NCBI GenBank assembly: GCA_947496215.1
Contig: CANMCF010000030.1
Coordinates: 1-32,620, forward strand
DNA length: 32,620 nucleotides
Source of the DNA: an uncultured Bizionia sp.
Lineage (GTDB): Bacteria; Bacteroidota; Bacteroidia; Flavobacteriales; Flavobacteriaceae
Direction: 5' to 3'
Under the pieces are notes generated by a model. The model saw only the letters and a program-made list of their open reading frames with translations, did not search any database and was not told where the DNA came from. The position numbers and the translations under genes were made by a program. This document shows, piece after piece, positions 1,831 through 11,593 of this stretch. Every line of letters starts with the position of its first letter. Positions within the stretch are counted from its first letter, which is position 1.

Positions 1831-1843
1831 TTTGCTGGCTTCC

Positions 1844-1906
1844 CTCATTCAAAACAACGTTTCACTCAATGTCTGTTTTTTAACAAGGATCATGGACATA
1901 GTTTTA
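1844..1906 (+). promoter_or_regulatory. Phased direct-repeat promoter, copy 1
   Basis: Two CTCA-type boxes start at 1844 (CTCATT) and 1865 (CTCAAT), exactly 21 bp apart. After the second box come exactly 27 bp and then ATAGTTTTA (1898-1906), which contains a near match (TAGTTTTA) to the Bacteroidota -7 box TAnnTTTG. A T-run about 17 bp before the -7 box may act as the -33 element. The start codon of the downstream gene is 22 bp further on. The same geometry recurs at 4152-4214 and 7389-7451. Direct repeats two helical turns apart just upstream of the promoter are typical of LytTR-type response-regulator sites (the E. coli BtsR and YpdB sites have a similar period); assigning that class here is inference. 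Confidence 0.75.
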
Positions 1907-1928
1907 TATCGAATTAAAACAAAAACGT

Positions 1929-4079
1929 ATGAAACCATCAACCATTGCAAAACAGATGACAAGATTGTTGTTCATGTTATGCTTCACTCTTCAACTACAA
2001 GCACAAGAAAAAACGATATCGGGTATAATATCTGATGAAAAGGGAATTCCCTTGCCAGGCGTCAACATAACCATTGTTGGAAGCGGCATGGGGACACAAA
2101 CGGATTTTGACGGCAAATACTCGCTAATGGCAAACAAAGGAGATGTACTCAGATTTTCTTTCCTAGGATATGTTACGGTCGACAAAGTAGTGAAAAGATC
2201 CAAGACGATAAGCTTCAAGATGGAAGTGGATGCTTCCTCTTTGAGTGAGGTAGTAGTAACAGCAATAGGTATCAAGAGAAAAGAAAAACAAATGAGTTAT
2301 GCCGTCCAAAGTGTCAAAGCAGAAGAAATTGCACAGCCAGCCAATCCCAAGGTGGTACAAAGTCTATCAGGCAAGGTTTCTGGAGTGCAGATCACCATTA
2401 GCAATAGCAATGTGAATGCTGGATCCAAAGTGACATTGAGAGGGAATACTTCTATTTCAAACAATGGGGAACCTTTGGTTGTCATAGATGGAAAAGCATC
2501 TACCATGGCGGCATTAAATGGAATGAAGTCTAAAAAAATTAAAGACATCAACGTTTTGAAAGGGGTAGAAGGTGCAGCATTGTATGGATCGCAAGGAGCC
2601 AACGGCATTATTGTCGTAAATACGAAAAATGGAAATTACAAAGTGCCAAAAGCAAGTCAAATTGCAAGAAGCGAACCTACAAGAATGGATAACGAATCTT
2701 ACACTAGAATTCATGAAAACCAATTCAAGAACACATCAGCGGATCCTTTGTCGACATTTTCTATAGATGTGGACAAGGCGTCGTATAGCAACGTGAGACG
2801 GCTGATAAACAATGGTCAATTCATACCGGCAGATGCTGTGAAGATTGAAGAAATGGTCAACTATTTCGATTATGATTACCCAGAACCATCAGGAGAACAC
2901 CCATTTTCCATCAATACGGAAGTAGCAAGAACGCCTTGGAACGAATCCACCAAATTGGTCAAGATAGGCTTGCAAGGCAAAACCTATGAAAATGAAGAAT
3001 TGCCAGCAGCAAATCTAACTTTCCTAATAGATGTTTCTGGTTCCATGGGAAATTCCAACAAGCTCCCCTTGTTGAAGTCGGCTTTCAAACTGTTGGTAAA
3101 TCAGTTGAGAGAAAAAGACAAAGTAGCCATAGTCGTCTATGCAGGTGCAGCAGGTGTTGTTTTGAAGCCAACTTCCGGGAAAAACAAAGAAGTCATCTTA
3201 AAAGCCTTGGAAAACTTGAATGCTGGTGGATCCACAGCTGGGGGAGAAGGGATAGAATTGGCATATAAGATGGCTCAAGAGCATTTTGACAAAAAAGGAA
3301 ACAATAGGGTGATATTGGCTACAGATGGCGATTTCAATGTTGGTGCATCAAGCAATGATGCAATGGAGAAGTTAATTGTCGAGAAAAGAAAGACAGGAGT
3401 ATTCCTATCTGTTTTGGGGTTTGGATACGGAAACTACAAAGATTCAAAATTGGAAATTCTGGCTGACAAAGGAAACGGTAATCACGCATACATAGATACC
3501 ATGCAAGAGGCTAGATTGATCTTTGGAAAAGAATTTGGCGGAACACTTTTCACTATAGCCAAAGATGTGAAGATTCAAGTGGAATTCAATCCAGCCAAAG
3601 TACAGGCCTACAGGTTGATCGGGTATGAAAACAGATTGTTGGCAAATGAGGATTTCATTGATGATACCAAAGATGCAGGCGAATTGGGAAGCGGTCACTC
3701 GGTTACGGCTCTATATGAAGTGATTCCTGTTGGTGTGAAAAGTGATTACATTAAAAAAACGCCAGATTTAAAATACATTAAAACCAAGACCAAAGAAGCC
3801 TATACAGATGAATTGTTGACGGTGAAATTTAGATACAAGAAGCCAGATGGAAGCAAAAGCATAGAAATGGTCCATACAACGAAGGATGAAATGGCCGAGG
3901 CTTCGGAAGATATGAAATTCGCCTCATCCGTAGCACTCTTCGGGATGCAATTGAGACAATCGCAGTTTCATAACAATTCTAAGATCTCAGATGTCATAAG
4001 CTTGGCAGAACAAGGGAGAGGAAAGGATAAACAAGGATATAGAGCGGAATTCATCAGATTGATATCCGCAATACGATAA
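1929..4079 (+). CDS. Exported CarboxypepD_reg-plug-vWA protein (YfbK/DUF3520-type)
   Basis: 716 residues. A signal peptide ends near LQLQAQ (residue 26). Residues ~28-105 form a carboxypeptidase-regulatory-like beta domain (GTQTDFDGKYS). Residues ~106-235 form a SusC/RagA-type plug (EVVVTAIGIKR, then ALYGSQGANGIIVVNTKNG). No beta-barrel follows. Instead residues ~265-716 match the YfbK-type vWA protein: FSIDVDKASYSNVRR, EEMVNYFDYDYPEP.GEHPF, then a vWA with a complete MIDAS (D368-x-S370-x-S372, T436, D466 in ATDGDFNVG), and a C-terminal DUF3520-like part. The plug may dock to outer-membrane or TonB partners while the vWA binds a protein through a metal ion; this is inferred. It has its own promoter (1844-1906) and terminator (4104-4135). 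It shares MKP-type N-terminus, signal peptide and regulatory domain with the next gene, so the two are partial paralogues. Confidence 0.9.
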   Translation: MKPSTIAKQMTRLLFMLCFTLQLQAQEKTISGIISDEKGIPLPGVNITIVGSGMGTQTDFDGKYSLMANKGDVLRFSFLGYVTVDKVVKRSKTISFKMEVDASSLSEVVVTAIGIKRKEKQMSYAVQSVKAEEIAQPANPKVVQSLSGKVSGVQITISNSNVNAGSKVTLRGNTSISNNGEPLVVIDGKASTMAALNGMKSKKIKDINVLKGVEGAALYGSQGANGIIVVNTKNGNYKVPKASQIARSEPTRMDNESYTRIHENQFKNTSADPLSTFSIDVDKASYSNVRRLINNGQFIPADAVKIEEMVNYFDYDYPEPSGEHPFSINTEVARTPWNESTKLVKIGLQGKTYENEELPAANLTFLIDVSGSMGNSNKLPLLKSAFKLLVNQLREKDKVAIVVYAGAAGVVLKPTSGKNKEVILKALENLNAGGSTAGGEGIELAYKMAQEHFDKKGNNRVILATDGDFNVGASSNDAMEKLIVEKRKTGVFLSVLGFGYGNYKDSKLEILADKGNGNHAYIDTMQEARLIFGKEFGGTLFTIAKDVKIQVEFNPAKVQAYRLIGYENRLLANEDFIDDTKDAGELGSGHSVTALYEVIPVGVKSDYIKKTPDLKYIKTKTKEAYTDELLTVKFRYKKPDGSKSIEMVHTTKDEMAEASEDMKFASSVALFGMQLRQSQFHNNSKISDVISLAEQGRGKDKQGYRAEFIRLISAIR

Positions 4080-4103
4080 AGCTATTGTCCCATTTGTCGA
4101 ATT

Positions 4104-4135
4104 TAAAAAGGTTGAACGAAAGTTCAACCTTTTTT
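4104..4135. terminator. Rho-independent terminator after the vWA gene
   Basis: Perfect arms GGTTGAAC (4110-4117) and GTTCAACC (4122-4129) enclose a GAAA loop and are followed by six T (4130-4135). A short A-run precedes the stem. Its layout copies the terminator at 1798-1830, and both are followed directly by TTGCTGG and the phased-repeat promoter, so a terminator-promoter block may have been duplicated as a unit. Confidence 0.92.
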
Positions 4136-4151
4136 AGTTCTTGCTGGTTCC

Positions 4152-4214
4152 CTCACCCAAAAGCCTCTTTTGCTCAATGGAGGTTTTGCAATAGCAGCTT
4201 TAGTCATAGTTTTA
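4152..4214 (+). promoter_or_regulatory. Phased direct-repeat promoter, copy 2
   Basis: Boxes start at 4152 (CTCACC) and 4173 (CTCAAT), 21 bp apart. Then follow 27 bp and ATAGTTTTA at 4206-4214. A TTTTG lies about 18 bp before the -7 box, close to the known Bacteroidota -33 element. The start codon is 23 bp downstream. The stretch from TTGCTGG through the boxes is also similar to copy 1 outside the motifs, which points to common descent as well as selection. Confidence 0.75.
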
Positions 4215-4237
4215 TTTCAAATTAAAATATAAGTGTC

Positions 4238-7200
4238 ATGAAACCATTCACAAATAGAGAGACAACATTAAGTTTAATGTTCATATTGTTTTCGTTTTTG
4301 CAATTGCAAGCACAAGACATACCCTCCATCAAGGTGGGAGAGGATAGGTTGGGAGTAACATCTTTGGACATAAAAGTAGAAGTCGTTGGCAATATCGCAA
4401 CAACGACTTATGATATGTTGTTTTACAATCCAACCTCCTCTATTTTGGAAGGGGAATTGGCTTTCCCCCTGGGAGAAGGGCAGGATGTCTCTCGATTGGC
4501 ATTGGAAGTGAATGGCAAGTTGCGAGAGGCTGTGGTAGTCGAAAAGGAGCAAGGTAGAGTCGCTTTTGAGGCAGTCGTAAGGCAAGGTGTGGACCCTGTG
4601 TTGTTGGAGAAAGGAACAGGTAACAATTATAAGGCAAGGATATATCCTATTCCTGCAACAGGATACAAACGAGTGGTTCTAGCTCACGAGCAAGAACTCA
4701 TATTAAGTGAAGATGCCCATTATTTTCATTTGCCTTTGGGATTCAAAAAGAATTTGGATCATTTTGCCTTGGAAATGAATGTCTTCAATCAAAAGTCGGC
4801 ACCTTTCATGAGTGAAGGTAATTTAGCCAACTTCAAGTTCAACGCATTGCATGAGAATTATTATGCAAAGATCGTAAAGAAAAATTTTACGCCAACCACT
4901 TCATTGACTGTAAGAATCCCTCAAGCATATGAGAATAACAAGACTATCGTGTCCGAAGATTATTTCTATGTCTATAAACGATTGACCCCAGAATTGAAAC
5001 AGAGAAGCAAGGCTCGAAAAATAGCTCTGTATTGGGATGTTTCATTATCGACAAAAGATAGAGATTTGGAAAAAGAATTGCAATTTCTGGATGTTTATCT
5101 CCAGTATTTGGAGAATGTGAAAATTGAACTCATAAAATTCAGCAATGCCATTCATCTACAAAAGACATATAAAATTGAAAATGGAGAATGGGGGGACTTG
5201 AGACAGGAATTGAAGCATTCCATTTATGATGGGGGAACTTCATATGACGATATGTTTTCAAATGAGAATTCAGATGAAATAATCCTATTTTCCGATGGAA
5301 TGAAAAACCTCAGTGAATTCCCTGTGGAAATAAAAAAAACGGTCTTTGTGGGAAACAGCATCATAAAAGCAAATCATGAAGAATTGAAAAGCATCAGTGA
5401 GACAACAGGAGGGAAATACATAAACCTAAAAAAAGGTAGTGTTGTAGAATCTGTTGAAAAAATCAAATATCAAGCCTATAGATTCTTAGGAGTCAAATCT
5501 TCAAACAATGCCATGGAAATTTATCCAAATACACCGCATTCGGTTGGGAAATATTTTTCCATATCAGGAAAAGGTTTTGATGAAAATGATGAAATCACAT
5601 TGCTTTTTGGATACGGAAACAAAATAACCCAAAGCGAAACGATAACCATAGATGGAGAAGTCTGCAATGCATTGGTGAAACGTATTTGGTCACAAAAGAA
5701 ACTGGATGTGCTTCAGCTTGATGAGAAGGGGAATAAAGATGAAATAATAGAACACAGCAAGCTTCATAATCTAGTAAGCAGTCATACTTCCTTGATCGTC
5801 CTTGAAACGGTTTGGGATTATGTAAGGTATGAAATTACGCCGCCCGATGAATTGTTGGAGGAGTACAATAGAATCATAGGAGCGAACAAACGGAAGAAGG
5901 TAAGAACAGTTCAAAAAGAAGGTGAAGAAACGAAAGTTGATGATGTTGAAGAGTTGGTGGTAAAGAGTGATGTGAGCAATACAAGTTTTTCAGGAACTAT
6001 TTCCGGAACCATTTCGGATGAAAATGGATTGCCCATGCCAGGTGTCGGTATCGTGATAAAGGGAACCAGCAATGGTACGCAGACCGATTTTGATGGTAAT
6101 TATTCCATAGATGCCTCTACTGGGGACATATTGTCTTTCTCTTCAGTCGGATACAAATCTGTAGAAGCAGATGTGGGAGTATCCAGTAAAATTAGTTTTT
6201 CCATGGAAGTAGATGCAGGATCCATAGATGAGGTTGTTGTAACTGCTTTGGGAATTGAAAGAATAAAATCATCTACGACATATTCTTCACAAATTATCAG
6301 TGGAGAGGAATTAAATGGTGAGCCATATCGTGGCTATAGAAGTACGGAAGCCTCGTCTGATCAATCCTATGGAAATTACGGTGCATCGCATAATAGTTAT
6401 AAGTATAGAGGGAAATTGGAAGTAGGAACATATGATAACAAGGCAAGCTACATAGGAGAACTATCAAAGGCCAAAACCTTGGAAGAAGCCTACGACATAT
6501 ATTTGAAGCAAAGAGAAGAATATGCAGAAGTGCCAGCATATTATGTAGATGTGTATGATTATTTCAAGATGTGGAACAATGAAGAATATAGTTTGAGAAT
6601 ATTGACAAACATAGCCGAAATAGATTTTGACAACTATGAGTTGCTAAGGGTGTTGGGATATAAATTGGAGGAGGAGAATAGTTACAGTTTGGCAACTTAC
6701 ATCTATGAGCGGGTATTGGAGTTACGACCTGAAGATTCGCAATCTTATAGAGATTTGGCATTGTCGTATGAAGAAATGGGAAAGAATCATGAAGCCTTTA
6801 ATTTGCTAAATGACATCGTTACTGGTGCTATCTATGAATCTAATGGGAGAAGACGATTTTCTGGAATGCACACCATAGCAAGAAACGAGATAAACAAGTT
6901 GGTTCAAAAAGAGTTTAAAGGTAGAAAGGGCAAACTGGAAAAAGACAATGTGGCAGATGCAAGTTACGATATACGAATAGTCATAGATTGGAACCATAAT
7001 GATACAGATATCGATTTGCATGTCATAGATCCCAATTTGGAAGAGTGCTCCTATAAGCATACCAAAACTAAAATTGGTGGAAAAATATCAGAAGATATGA
7101 CACAGGGATTCGGGCCAGAGGAATTTACCATTGAAAAAGCCAAGTCAGGAGCATACTATGTTAAAGTGAATTATTATGGGGATGGATATCAAAAGATAGA

Positions 7201-7327
7201 AAATCCAACCTTCATGAAGGTTACGATGTTTAAGAATTACGGAAAGTACAATGAAACCAAAGAAATCAAAATAATAAGACTGTCAAAGTCACAAGACAAC
7301 AATATCGTTGCCAGAATAGATATTTAG
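4238..7327 (+). CDS. Exported VIT-vWA-CarboxypepD_reg-TPR-DUF2135 mosaic protein
   Basis: 1029 residues. Signal peptide to about residue 26 (FLQLQAQ). Residues ~32-155 are a VIT domain (EGELAFPLGEGQ, YKARIYPIPATGYKRV). Residues ~260-390 are a vWA-like domain with a DxSxS motif (D267-S271), a possible T334 (DGGTSYDD) and FSDG at 351-354, so a metal site is plausible although the fold looks divergent. VSSHTSLIVLE (~513-523) is the usual tail of VIT/vWA proteins. Residues ~585-675 are a carboxypeptidase-regulatory-like domain ending in EVVVTALGIER, the SusC-type signature, but no plug follows. Residues ~745-865 look TPR-like (ELRPEDSQSYRDLALSYEEMGK). Residues ~909-1029 are a DUF2135 domain (DWNHNDTDIDLHVIDP). 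The C-terminal ~300 residues are clearly homologous to the next gene. Own phased-repeat promoter at 4152-4214. Role inferred: cell-surface or periplasmic protein-protein interaction. Confidence 0.9.
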   Translation: MKPFTNRETTLSLMFILFSFLQLQAQDIPSIKVGEDRLGVTSLDIKVEVVGNIATTTYDMLFYNPTSSILEGELAFPLGEGQDVSRLALEVNGKLREAVVVEKEQGRVAFEAVVRQGVDPVLLEKGTGNNYKARIYPIPATGYKRVVLAHEQELILSEDAHYFHLPLGFKKNLDHFALEMNVFNQKSAPFMSEGNLANFKFNALHENYYAKIVKKNFTPTTSLTVRIPQAYENNKTIVSEDYFYVYKRLTPELKQRSKARKIALYWDVSLSTKDRDLEKELQFLDVYLQYLENVKIELIKFSNAIHLQKTYKIENGEWGDLRQELKHSIYDGGTSYDDMFSNENSDEIILFSDGMKNLSEFPVEIKKTVFVGNSIIKANHEELKSISETTGGKYINLKKGSVVESVEKIKYQAYRFLGVKSSNNAMEIYPNTPHSVGKYFSISGKGFDENDEITLLFGYGNKITQSETITIDGEVCNALVKRIWSQKKLDVLQLDEKGNKDEIIEHSKLHNLVSSHTSLIVLETVWDYVRYEITPPDELLEEYNRIIGANKRKKVRTVQKEGEETKVDDVEELVVKSDVSNTSFSGTISGTISDENGLPMPGVGIVIKGTSNGTQTDFDGNYSIDASTGDILSFSSVGYKSVEADVGVSSKISFSMEVDAGSIDEVVVTALGIERIKSSTTYSSQIISGEELNGEPYRGYRSTEASSDQSYGNYGASHNSYKYRGKLEVGTYDNKASYIGELSKAKTLEEAYDIYLKQREEYAEVPAYYVDVYDYFKMWNNEEYSLRILTNIAEIDFDNYELLRVLGYKLEEENSYSLATYIYERVLELRPEDSQSYRDLALSYEEMGKNHEAFNLLNDIVTGAIYESNGRRRFSGMHTIARNEINKLVQKEFKGRKGKLEKDNVADASYDIRIVIDWNHNDTDIDLHVIDPNLEECSYKHTKTKIGGKISEDMTQGFGPEEFTIEKAKSGAYYVKVNYYGDGYQKIENPTFMKVTMFKNYGKYNETKEIKIIRLSKSQDNNIVARIDI

Positions 7328-7388
7328 GATCAATACAATAAATTAAAGTTTTGTTTAATCCAGTTAACTAGAAAAAAAATATGGTTTA

Positions 7389-7451
7389 CTCAATGAAAAG
7401 GTAGTTTTACTCAATTGCTTTTTATTTTCATTACCTTTATTTATAGTTTTA
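7389..7451 (+). promoter_or_regulatory. Phased direct-repeat promoter, copy 3
   Basis: This copy has the cleanest repeats: TTTACTCAAT occurs twice, with CTCAAT starting at 7389 and 7410 (21 bp). Then come 27 bp and ATAGTTTTA at 7443-7451. The start codon is 28 bp downstream. Unlike copies 1 and 2 there is no hairpin terminator between it and the preceding gene, and the flanking sequence is no longer similar. Conservation of boxes and spacing alone therefore argues for function. Confidence 0.8.
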
Positions 7452-7479: not shown

Positions 7480-9135
7480 ATGAAGATTCTATTAAAATTA
7501 TTGTTCGTATTTATGGCTACCTGTCAACTATATGGACAAGAAGCACCAATTGTTGATCAGATTAGCGTATCCGGTAATATTACGGATGAAGAAGGGAAAC
7601 CATTTTCCAGTGTAAGTGTATTGGTTAAAGGTACTGCCAATGGGACGCAAACAAATAGCAATGGGAATTATTCGATAACGGCAAATACAGGGGACATTCT
7701 AACGTTTTCCTATAAAGGTTATTCTACCTCCGAGGCCTATATAAATACAACGGAACCAATAAATATCTCGATGAGCCCTGATGATAGTGAGAGAGAGGAT
7801 GTTGTGGTTACTGCCATGGGGATAGAGAGAAAGAAGGACAACATCACATCATCAATGAGAACCCTTGATGACAAGGAATTGATGGATACGAACAATAGAA
7901 ACATTCTAAACACCATAGAGAACAGAGTTAGCGGAACGAAAGTCGCTAGCAATGGAATTATTCTTAGAGGAGCAAGCAATGTAAGAGGAGGGACTTATGC
8001 CTTGATTGTTGTCGATGGAGCGATCACACCTTTTCAAATATTAAAATCCTTGGATGCAAATCTGGTCAAATCCATAAGTGTCATAAAAGGATTAAAGGGA
8101 GCTGCATTGTATGGAGCGCAAGGTGCCAATGGAGTCATTATGATTTCAACGAAGAAAAACACACGTTACATAGCCTCCAGTGCAAAGAAAACCAAAAAGA
8201 AACCCATACGTCACTCGGGAAGGTTAAAAGTGAAGAATATTGATAATAAAGCAGAATATGTCAAGTTGTTTTCCAAAGCTAAGACAGTAGATGAGGCATA
8301 TGAAGTATATAATAAGGAAAAAGAAAATCATTCAAAAGAATTGGGGTATTATGTGGACGCCTACGACTATTTTGCACAAAAGGACAATAGTGAATACAAG
8401 AAAGGAATTCTAAATGACATAATTAAGTCTGAATTTGAAAACTATGAGCTGTTAAGAGCATTGGGATATAAAATGGAAGCGGCAAAAGATTACTTATTGG
8501 CAAGTTCCTTGTTCAAGAGAGTATTGCTGATTAGGCCAAAAGAAGCACAATCCTATAGAGATCTAGCATTGGTTTATCAAGAAATGGGAAAGACACAAAA
8601 AGCTTTTGAGTTGTTGAATACAATAGTTAGCAATGCCTTATACGAGGTGAAAGGAACAAAAAAGTCCTTTGTGATGTATAATGTTGCCAAGAATGAAATC
8701 AACAATTTAATTCAAAAAGATCCGAAAGTCGATAAAAGTAACCTTGAAAGCTTCAATGAAATAAACACTAATTATGATGTTAGAGTCGTAATAGATTGGA
8801 ATAGGGCAGATACAGACATGGACTTGCATGTAATCGACCCATCATTGGAAGATTGTTTCTTCAAAAACCCAAAAACACAAATAGGGGGAGAAATTTCATC
8901 AGATTTAAATATAGCATATGGGCCAGAAGAGTTTACTTTGAGAAATGGAAGAAAAGGAGATTATTATGTAAAGGTAAATTATGCCAATGACGTTTTGCAA
9001 GATGATGAGAATCCGACATTTGTGAAAGTAACGTTATACAAAAACTACGGTACACCCAAAGAAACCAAAGATGTAAAAGTTGTAAGGTTGTCCAAAAGAA
9101 AAGGAGAACAAATAATAGCAAAACTTACTATTTAA
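7480..9135 (+). CDS. Exported CarboxypepD_reg-plug-TPR-DUF2135 protein
   Basis: 551 residues. Signal peptide to ~residue 20 (CQLYGQ). Residues ~28-105 are a carboxypeptidase-regulatory-like domain (KGTANGTQTNSNGNYS). Residues ~106-226 are a SusC-type plug (DVVVTAMGIERKK, ALYGAQGANGVIMISTKK). Residues ~255-385 are TPR-like and align with the second gene (RPKEAQSYRDLALVYQEMGKTQKAFELLN). Residues ~435-551 are DUF2135 (DWNRADTDMDLHVIDPSLED). It therefore joins the front of the first gene to the back of the second, without any vWA or VIT. No TonB-dependent barrel is present. It is followed by a terminator at 9160-9187 and preceded by the third phased-repeat promoter. The likely job is as a partner in the same exported complex; this is inferred from shared domains and promoters. 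Confidence 0.9.
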   Translation: MKILLKLLFVFMATCQLYGQEAPIVDQISVSGNITDEEGKPFSSVSVLVKGTANGTQTNSNGNYSITANTGDILTFSYKGYSTSEAYINTTEPINISMSPDDSEREDVVVTAMGIERKKDNITSSMRTLDDKELMDTNNRNILNTIENRVSGTKVASNGIILRGASNVRGGTYALIVVDGAITPFQILKSLDANLVKSISVIKGLKGAALYGAQGANGVIMISTKKNTRYIASSAKKTKKKPIRHSGRLKVKNIDNKAEYVKLFSKAKTVDEAYEVYNKEKENHSKELGYYVDAYDYFAQKDNSEYKKGILNDIIKSEFENYELLRALGYKMEAAKDYLLASSLFKRVLLIRPKEAQSYRDLALVYQEMGKTQKAFELLNTIVSNALYEVKGTKKSFVMYNVAKNEINNLIQKDPKVDKSNLESFNEINTNYDVRVVIDWNRADTDMDLHVIDPSLEDCFFKNPKTQIGGEISSDLNIAYGPEEFTLRNGRKGDYYVKVNYANDVLQDDENPTFVKVTLYKNYGTPKETKDVKVVRLSKRKGEQIIAKLTI

Positions 9136-9159
9136 GTTATAAGCTTATGAAGAAGATTT

Positions 9160-9187
9160 AAAAAAAGACGCTTTAGCGTCTTTTTTT
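9160..9187. terminator. Rho-independent terminator
   Basis: GACGCT (9167-9172) and AGCGTC (9175-9180) pair around a two-base loop. The stem is preceded by an A-run and followed by seven T, so it can serve the plus-strand gene and, by symmetry, the minus-strand DoxX gene that converges on it. Confidence 0.9.
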
Positions 9188-9266
9188 AGCTCAAAGAATT
9201 TTATATCTATCTTTTAGGGTCAATAAATGTACTGGATTTTGCCGTATTCAAGTATCTTCAAATGCA

Positions 9267-9689
9267 CTATTGCTGCATTTTCAAGTAATAATCTGTAGAA
9301 TGTTTACCAGATCCATAAATTAGGAAAAATACACAAACCAACAAAGTGATAAAAGCTACTATTAAGTTGGTAGAGCTCAATTCACTCGTAAACCCAATAT
9401 ATATGGCTCCAATCAAAAGGGGGATTTGTGCAATAACTGCCCATCTTGTCAATAGTCCGAACACAATTAAAATACCTCCAATCAAATGGGCAGGGATAAC
9501 ATAATGAAGAGCAATCATCGCTCCTGCCATATCCTGGATAGGTTCGAACAGATTATTTAAATATTGGATGTTTTGCATAAATTGAAGCCCTTTTATAAAT
9601 AAGAAAACACCCAATCCAATCCGTAATAGATCTATTGGTAAATAAGTGTGCCTGTTAGCCCACTTATTAAGTGATTTTAGTGCGTTCAT
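9267..9689 (-). CDS. DoxX-family membrane protein
   Basis: 140 residues with about four hydrophobic segments. The pattern LLRIGLGVFLFIKGLQFM near the N-terminus, then IPAHLIGGILIVFGLLTR and a final helix ending FFLIYGSGKHS, fits the DoxX family, whose members are small inner-membrane proteins of about 130-150 residues linked in some species to redox or thiol stress. Its exact activity is unknown. It points towards the plus-strand DUF2135 gene and shares the bidirectional terminator at 9160-9187. No clear operon partner: the ~195 bp upstream of it hold a DUF2135 gene remnant on the other strand. Confidence 0.85.
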   Translation of the reverse strand: MNALKSLNKWANRHTYLPIDLLRIGLGVFLFIKGLQFMQNIQYLNNLFEPIQDMAGAMIALHYVIPAHLIGGILIVFGLLTRWAVIAQIPLLIGAIYIGFTSELSSTNLIVAFITLLVCVFFLIYGSGKHSTDYYLKMQQ

Positions 9690-9765
9690 AGTATAAGGTC
9701 TTGATTAATAAGCACTTAAATTACGAAAAAATATTGAGAATTACTACGTTTGAACGACTTCCATT

Positions 9766-10751: not shown

Positions 10752-11593
10752 TTCTTGGATTGTTTAATTAATTTTTTAAAAATGCCCCTACTTATTTTTT
10801 GATCATAAATAATACCATAGTGTATTCTTAGTAAGTCGATGTCTAGTTGAGAGATGGTTTTTAAATTTGTACAGTTTTTATATAACAAACTACTCTCATC
10901 TATATAGCTGTTAATACAAAAATTGCCCAAGCTACTATAGAACAGTTGTTTCAATTGTCTTAACAATCTGGATTCAGAGTTGGATTGAGAAGGATTCACT
11001 AATAATATTCCATTGTAAAATTTATTGTTCTTATCTGTCGTTAAATCATAAGTTGCACCATATAGTAACGATTTGTCTTTCACTTCTTCAGAATCAAACT
11101 TGTAGTCTTCCTCATTAATGATTTTGGAAGTGGTTTTAATATAGAAATTTGCTTTCTCTATATTGTTGGTAAAGCTAATGTTTAGATTGTCGATGTTATA
11201 TTTGTTGATGTCTGAAAAAAAAGTTTTGAAATCTTTTATGACTTGTTTGGGTAATTTTTTGTCTATGCATATGGTAATGTCATCGTTCCATTGTTTAAGG
11301 TATACAGCATTTTTAGTTTTTTCATTGGAATTATGAAAAACCAAAGACCTATATAAAGTTAAAATCTTTTCTCTTGAATAAGAGCCAGAATTCAAGTGGC
11401 TTAGGTTATAATGTAGAGATTGATTTACGTAAAGAGTATCGTTGTCTATTAATATTTTTTCTTCATTTTTATCTAACTCATTTTTTTTAATACTGAATGA
11501 TCGCTTATATGGTATGATGTCATCAGTATTATTTTGAGAGAATGATGAATTTATAAAAGATGTTATTATTAGGGCAATGAATGTTTTAGTCAT
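10748..11593 (-). CDS. Exported protein of unknown function, paralogue of the next gene
   Basis: 281 residues. Signal peptide MTKTFIALIITSFINSSFSQ. The body is Asn/Lys/Ser-rich, with SQLDIDLLRIHYGII near the end aligning to the downstream paralogue. It begins only 2 bp after the stop of the acyl-CoA carboxylase gene, and its stop overlaps the start of the downstream gene by 4 bp. The three genes thus look co-translated, which is odd because a cytoplasmic carboxylase and two exported proteins have no obvious shared job. Function unknown. Confidence 0.75.
   Translation of the reverse strand: MTKTFIALIITSFINSSFSQNNTDDIIPYKRSFSIKKNELDKNEEKILIDNDTLYVNQSLHYNLSHLNSGSYSREKILTLYRSLVFHNSNEKTKNAVYLKQWNDDITICIDKKLPKQVIKDFKTFFSDINKYNIDNLNISFTNNIEKANFYIKTTSKIINEEDYKFDSEEVKDKSLLYGATYDLTTDKNNKFYNGILLVNPSQSNSESRLLRQLKQLFYSSLGNFCINSYIDESSLLYKNCTNLKTISQLDIDLLRIHYGIIYDQKISRGIFKKLIKQSKK

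Follow-up and report, generated by a model that had tools for sequence, protein, structure and literature searches.

A promoter motif conserved in Flavobacteriaceae precedes genes mostly for exported proteins and points to a candidate LytTR-type regulator

We analysed a stretch of 32,620 nucleotides from an uncultured Bizionia sp. (the window, which is contig C30 of a 132-contig genome of 4.95 Mb, G000), in which three tandem plus-strand genes for predicted exported proteins are each preceded by a pair of direct repeats and a promoter-like element in a fixed arrangement. According to Pfam, gene 1 (1929..4079) encodes a protein of 716 aa with CarboxypepD_reg, Plug, VWA and YfbK_C domains, gene 2 (4238..7327) one of 1029 aa with VIT, CarboxypepD_reg and DUF2135 domains, and gene 3 (7480..9135) one of 551 aa with CarboxypepD_reg, Plug, TPR-like and DUF2135 domains. 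The closest match of gene 1, 94% identical, lies on a contig titled Bizionia sp. MAG-66 and the next, 73% identical, comes from an uncultured Flavobacteriaceae bacterium; the gene-1 matches thus place the relatives of the window in the Flavobacteriaceae. Ahead of gene 1, putative regulator site 1 (1840..1870, plus strand, as are the other two) reads TTCCCTCATT-N11-TTCACTCAAT, with boxes at 1840-1849 and 1861-1870 and no mismatch to the family motif given below. It is followed by predicted promoter 1 (1876..1906), in which a TTTT -33-like element (1876-1879) is separated by 19 bp from the -7-like box TAGTTTTA (1899-1906), a pattern match to the flavobacterial sigma-A -7 consensus TAnnTTTG as it appears in the accessible part of PMC9723704. 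Putative site 2 (4148..4178, TTCCCTCACC-N11-TTTGCTCAAT) is degenerate, with 3 mismatches, and promoter 2 (4184..4214), predicted by the same pattern, has TTTT at 4184-4187 and, after 19 bp, TAGTTTTA at 4207-4214. Putative site 3 (7385..7415) is TTTACTCAAT-N11-TTTACTCAAT, and promoter 3 (7419..7451), again a pattern match, consists of a TTTTT -33-like element (7419-7423) and then TAGTTTTA (7444-7451); the one mismatch of this copy to a 67-bp composite pattern lies in the -33 element. Terminator-like hairpins resembling each other stand ahead of sites 1 and 2 (1801-1830 and 4106-4135), in a shared upstream segment, and by eye no such hairpin is seen at site 3.

A preliminary description of this DNA had placed pairs of CTCAAT-like boxes at 1844/1865, 4152/4173 and 7389/7410, each 21 bp apart, and ATAGTTTTA at 1898, 4206 and 7443, 27 bp past the end of each second box; all of these figures proved exact. 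The boxes read CTCATT and CTCAAT in copy 1, CTCACC (a degenerate first box) and CTCAAT in copy 2, and CTCAAT twice in copy 3. Lone CTCAAT boxes occur at chance level in the window (26 observed, 27.9 expected), and ATAGTTTTA by itself is found 8 times on its plus strand. The composite with a first box CTCANT, which copy 2 misses because of its CTCACC, matches twice in the window and in none of 100 shuffles. A search of the whole genome for the 67-bp composite, with up to 3 mismatches allowed, gave 7 matches, and 0 for a reversed-pattern control; the 7 are the three window sites, one where contig C12 ends, and one each on C29, C16 and C14. A loose pattern, CTCA-N17-CTCAAT, gave 14 matches in this genome against 13 for its control and is therefore uninformative, so that tighter patterns were used for later scans. 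The C12 match (C12:93-159, loci L006 and L165) is a near-identical fourth copy of the gene-1 promoter and gene-1 start, truncated by the contig end, possibly at an assembly break within a duplicated gene. A chance origin was rejected on the basis of the shuffles, the reversed-pattern controls and the conservation described below.

Read across genera, the consensus is TTCACTCATT-N11-TTCACTCATT, or, in the degenerate form of the motif, TTYMCTCAWT-N11-TTYMCTCAWT, followed at a distance of 28 bp by the start of a flavobacterial -7 box. Among the best 80 of 461 confirmed gene-1 relatives (1.37 Mb of loci), 77 had usable upstream regions, three with less than 300 bp being left out. A box pair scoring at least 15/20 at period 21 is present in 64 of the 77, and none of the 77 reaches this score in a single mononucleotide shuffle per upstream; all of the 64 but L129, L162 and L163 also bear a -7-like box at offset 28 (61 upstreams). 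Period 17 also scores in 33 of the 77 and period 25, the next, in 19, which by our reasoning is because the box partly overlaps itself 4 bp apart, as strict pairs show only 21: with strict boxes, the 80 loci contain 19 same-strand pairs at distances up to 80 bp, every one of them with a spacing of exactly 21 bp, and no pair on opposite strands. In 30 loci around the histidine kinase gene introduced below (29 fetched by kinase similarity and L239, first fetched by motif), strict same-strand pairs lie 21 bp (seven pairs) or 42 bp (four pairs) apart and at no other distance, with one opposite-strand pair. Among 88 distinct sites selected by motif, the commonest offset of the -7 pattern is 28 (44 sites) and the next 49 (8 sites, equal to 28+21); TTTT, TTTG or ATTG starts 5 bp past box 2 in 54 of the 88. 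Rather than lacking the boxes or bearing them at random distances, orthologous loci in many genera keep the spacing.

The genome-wide search that had been proposed for related species was carried out on 249 Flavobacteriaceae genomes, that of the window included, at up to 1 mismatch, and yielded 209 motif matches against 22 for the reversed control, in 103 of the 249 genomes. The initial picture of three tandem genes thus holds for the sites and not for the count, as the motif precedes further genes both in this genome and across the family. The three-gene array, with a site ahead of each gene, is also present in a second genome of the genus (G001, locus L211). Target loci were hand-picked among the matches listed (nine stretches of the same genome outside the window, and others), and the sites from other genomes are a mix of exact and one-mismatch matches. 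A start codon follows within 100 bp of the site in 34 of the 37 loci L222-L258 (exceptions L224, L227 and L250). Domains were assigned to 55 downstream genes, at sites with up to 2 mismatches in the window and L202-L217 and up to 1 elsewhere: 26 have CarbopepD_reg_2, 18 VWA, 12 Plug, 5 SIMPL, 5 DUF2135, 3 VIT, 3 DUF6146 and 2 alpha-2-macroglobulin domains, families that overlap within proteins. A hydrophobic N-terminal core was found in 48 of the 55, against 207 of 404 other open reading frames of at least 130 aa in the same loci, by a crude rule that is no signal-peptide predictor, applied to open reading frames that are not curated genes. In this fetched sample the motif mostly fronts genes for exported proteins; the sample is not random, and its proportions therefore describe the sample and not the whole regulon.

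The variety of these targets bears on the possibility that the three window promoters are alike merely because the genes were duplicated in tandem with their upstream DNA, the spacing being inherited and non-functional. Copies 1 and 2 do have upstream sequence in common, including the terminator-like hairpin, and genes 2 and 3 are 51-52% identical across about 310 aa. However, identical spacing precedes unrelated genes (SIMPL, VWA lipoprotein, alpha-2-macroglobulin, DUF6146), and it is kept in many genera although the sequence surrounding the boxes varies. Duplication as the sole cause was rejected because unrelated targets carry the same spacing, and we regard a non-functional, inherited arrangement as extremely improbable.

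The preliminary description had further proposed a dedicated regulon under a LytTR-type regulator encoded outside the window, a proposal that gains support from the site format, from linkage and from co-occurrence. On contig C29, the locus L204 encodes a candidate response regulator (10757-11494) with both a receiver and a LytTR domain (PF00072, E 2e-20; PF04397, E 1.9e-19) and a candidate histidine kinase (7573-9747) with a PF06580 kinase core (E 2.9e-24); in this genome a DUF4349 gene (L204:9788-10663) lies between the two. By hydropathy, the kinase is predicted to bear a signal sequence and a single transmembrane helix. Pfam detects TPRs in it and, at an E-value of 3e-4 that misses the cut-off, a weak CarboxypepD_reg match, and no multi-transmembrane LYT sensor domain. 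The weak match hints at a possible extracytoplasmic input related to the targets. Fourteen LytTR proteins are encoded in 61 stretches (the window and L202-L261, most chosen by motif, with L259-L261 extending earlier ones), and 13 of them form one group, 66-83% identical to the copy on C29. In 11 of these 13, less than 100 bp separates the LytTR gene from that of the kinase; in G021 the gap is about 0.9 kb. A divergently oriented VWA or SIMPL gene usually comes first, and the motif, in many cases with a third phased box, separates it from the kinase and LytTR genes. On C29 this divergent gene encodes a SIMPL protein, and a rhodanese gene comes after it. Three boxes phased at 21 bp were observed between the kinase and the divergent gene in L204, L236, L244, L245 and L266, and likewise in L267, L269, L274, L276 and L288. 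Among 29 kinase loci, the best 29 of 135 by score and not a random draw, the motif lies within 450 bp upstream of the kinase in 15 at up to 1 mismatch, 23 at up to 2 and 27 at up to 3, and in all 27 it faces away from the kinase. The kinase coding sequence itself (63,036 bp) has 0 motif matches.

A regulator of another class that recognises direct repeats two helical turns apart, of AraC or OmpR type, might instead bind the boxes, the LytTR linkage being coincidental. AraC-type half-sites can likewise lie 21 bp apart beside the -35 element, and the predicted status of binding by the C29 regulator leaves room for such a protein. The membership of 13 of the 14 LytTR proteins near motif sites in one group (a count that covers LytTR proteins only) and the motif upstream of the C29-type kinase in 27 of 29 loci argue against it, as does the co-occurrence described next, which persists after conditioning on another LytTR-linked kinase; we consider this reading quite improbable.

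At E <= 1e-60 the C29-type kinase is found once per genome in 135 of the 249 family genomes. The motif occurs in 93 of these 135 and in 10 of the 114 kinase-negative genomes (Fisher test, p 2e-23), with 197 matches against 18 reversed-control matches in the former and 12 against 4 in the latter. Only 7 of 53 kinase-negative genomes of at least 3.0 Mb carry the motif, so that genome size alone is no explanation. A set of 158 genomes from the order includes 23 that belong to the family, as counted from the table; at the same threshold the kinase is found in 19 of the 158, and in the 10 kinase-positive genomes outside the family the matches are partial, at 35-37% identity. In 135 sampled genomes of the order outside the family, the motif had 10 matches, equal to the 10 of its control; the regulon is therefore a Flavobacteriaceae trait in these samples, and part of the Flavobacteriaceae examined is without it.

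The same data address the idea that another LytTR paralogue, such as the one in the C6 pair, binds the boxes, or that several share them. This genome has 29 LytTR genes, and a three-box site (L208:5713-5764, contig C6), ahead of a Vgb-lyase-like gene with a Por secretion tail, adjoins a different pair, made up of a kinase with two transmembrane helices and a LytTR regulator. A kinase of the C6 type, our comparator, is present in 192 of the 249 genomes and shows a raw association with the motif (96 of 192 with it against 7 of 57 without, p 1e-7), but none remains when genomes with and without the C29 kinase are taken separately (p 1.0 and 0.34, respectively), whereas the association of the C29 kinase persists within C6-kinase genomes (p 3e-14). 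In G254, moreover, a motif-bearing Vgb-lyase-like target (C7:206676) lies about 26 kb from the C6-type kinase gene (C7:179632-180942). The C6 pair was set aside as the regulator for the loss of its association, the L208 site possibly reflecting cross-talk or coincidence, and, with the C6 kinase as the paralogue compared, we consider control by a paralogue, alone or shared, quite improbable.

The motif, its spacing, the promoter geometry, the linkage and the co-occurrence come directly from computation. Since the same switch stands before surface genes and beside one histidine kinase/LytTR pair, that pair most likely controls them, and it is very probable that the boxes are the binding site of the C29 LytTR response regulator, which with its paired kinase would drive a surface-gene regulon. 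In the proposed mechanism, two response regulator molecules would bind the two boxes, on one face of the helix given the 21-bp period, the second box typically ending 5 bp ahead of the -33-like element. The bound regulator may then recruit sigma-A RNA polymerase at TAnnTTT[GA], starting 28 bp downstream, some promoters bearing a third phased box. Activation is presumed because the site lies upstream of -33. The regulon would comprise mainly exported surface or periplasmic proteins, those of the three window genes included, and its role is therefore probably in cell-envelope maintenance or remodelling.

Several observations weigh against this assignment. Binding and activation (as opposed to repression), like the signal and the role in physiology, are all inferred from sequence, and with 29 LytTR genes in one genome a paralogue could share the site, as the three-box site next to the C6 pair may illustrate. 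Of the 29 kinase loci, two (L275 and L289) are without the motif and four others reach a match only when 3 mismatches are allowed, the one in L280 lying 332 bp away; 13 of the 77 gene-1 orthologue upstreams fall under 15/20, and the -7 pattern stands at offset 28 in only 44 of the 88 motif sites. Further, at 1 mismatch the motif is missing from 42 of the 135 kinase-positive genomes and present in 10 kinase-negative ones, the Fisher tests ignore phylogeny, and one stratum of the conditional comparison is weak because all but 5 of the kinase-positive genomes have the C6 comparator. Overall, the regulon is real and conserved, and its candidate regulator is a strong one.

One three-box site of the same genome precedes a small-RNA candidate of about 180 nt (contig C1:170959-171174; L205:4988-5164, minus strand), which has a counterpart in G001 (C21, L212). 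In both genomes no open reading frame of at least 60 aa follows the site in its direction for more than 2 kb, the -7-like box starts 28 bp past the third box, and the stretch after the site is 84% identical between the two. In G000 this stretch folds into a structure closed by a long stem, whose stability (z -2.7) is matched by 1 of 200 shuffles, and a T run forms its end. G118 and G031 have the core as well, yet lack the boxes even with 4 mismatches allowed, so that the RNA either predates control by the boxes or lost it there; a fifth, weak match, 30 bases long, occurs in G218. No Rfam family matches the candidate at cut-off, and the lowest-E match of a permissive scan, Brucella sRNA 120, which covers the candidate's 3' end and the hairpin after it, was discarded at 29.1 bits against a cut-off of 114. 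One might speculate, tentatively, that the system serves envelope homeostasis, with a sensor that shares its CarboxypepD_reg-type domain with many of the targets monitoring the surface, and the LytTR pair driving surface proteins together with, in at least two species, a small RNA. Proteins and small RNAs are combined in sigma-E systems, a comparable layout.

To our knowledge, the binding sites of transcription factors are still little mapped in Flavobacteriaceae. Sequence alone here connects a single motif with a single candidate regulator and a coherent set of targets, and this connection offers a way into the functions of uncharacterised CarboxypepD_reg, VWA and SIMPL surface proteins. LytTR regulators can be numerous in the family, as the 29 of this genome illustrate, and the literature searched, a coverage outside which most subscription papers fall, contained no description of a site for one of them, of this motif or of the regulon. 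In their accessible parts, PMC10197871 and PMC10057207 mention LytTR genes only in passing, and PMC5552118 and PMC5431176 give no site sequence.

The site format of 10-N11-10 falls within that of LytTR sites, for which the accessible text of PMC4847170 gives repeats of 9-11 nt and spacers of 11-13 nt, and passages of PMC6193735 on the LytTR regulatory systems of Streptococcus describe direct repeats whose distance is mostly 12 bp and occasionally 11 or 13 bp. Closest in format is YpdA/YpdB of Escherichia coli, in which, in the same part of PMC4847170, GGCATTTCAT occurs twice in the yhjX oligonucleotide with an 11-bp spacer, hence a period of 21, and YpdB, like the C29 protein, joins a receiver to a LytTR domain. 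It differs in its 10-mer, in having yhjX as its single direct target (PMC4847170, same passages) as against a family-wide multi-gene regulon here, and in the sensor part of YpdA, where the C29 kinase has one transmembrane helix with CarboxypepD_reg and TPR regions. BtsS/BtsR (YehU/YehT) of Escherichia coli is similar in the yjiY half-sites ACCGCTTA and ACCACTCA, 21 bp apart by our count on the sequence in PMC4847170 as accessible, and in the ACTCA core that is also within TTCACTCATT, and differs in flanking bases, phylum, targets and sensor, BtsS being a 7-transmembrane receptor according to the title of PMC10653868. In HdrRM and BrsRM of Streptococcus the repeats lie 4-11 bp upstream of -35 (PMC6193735, passages as above), comparable with the 5 bp before the -33-like element here, but those systems consist of a regulator and an inhibitory membrane protein and are autoregulated, whereas here a histidine kinase/response regulator pair is found and the site faces the divergent gene, not the kinase. 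In the features that could be examined here, among them the placement just upstream of a -35-type element as judged from promoter-like elements, the system is of the LytTR two-component type, with a sensor that is not of the LytS/BtsS type.

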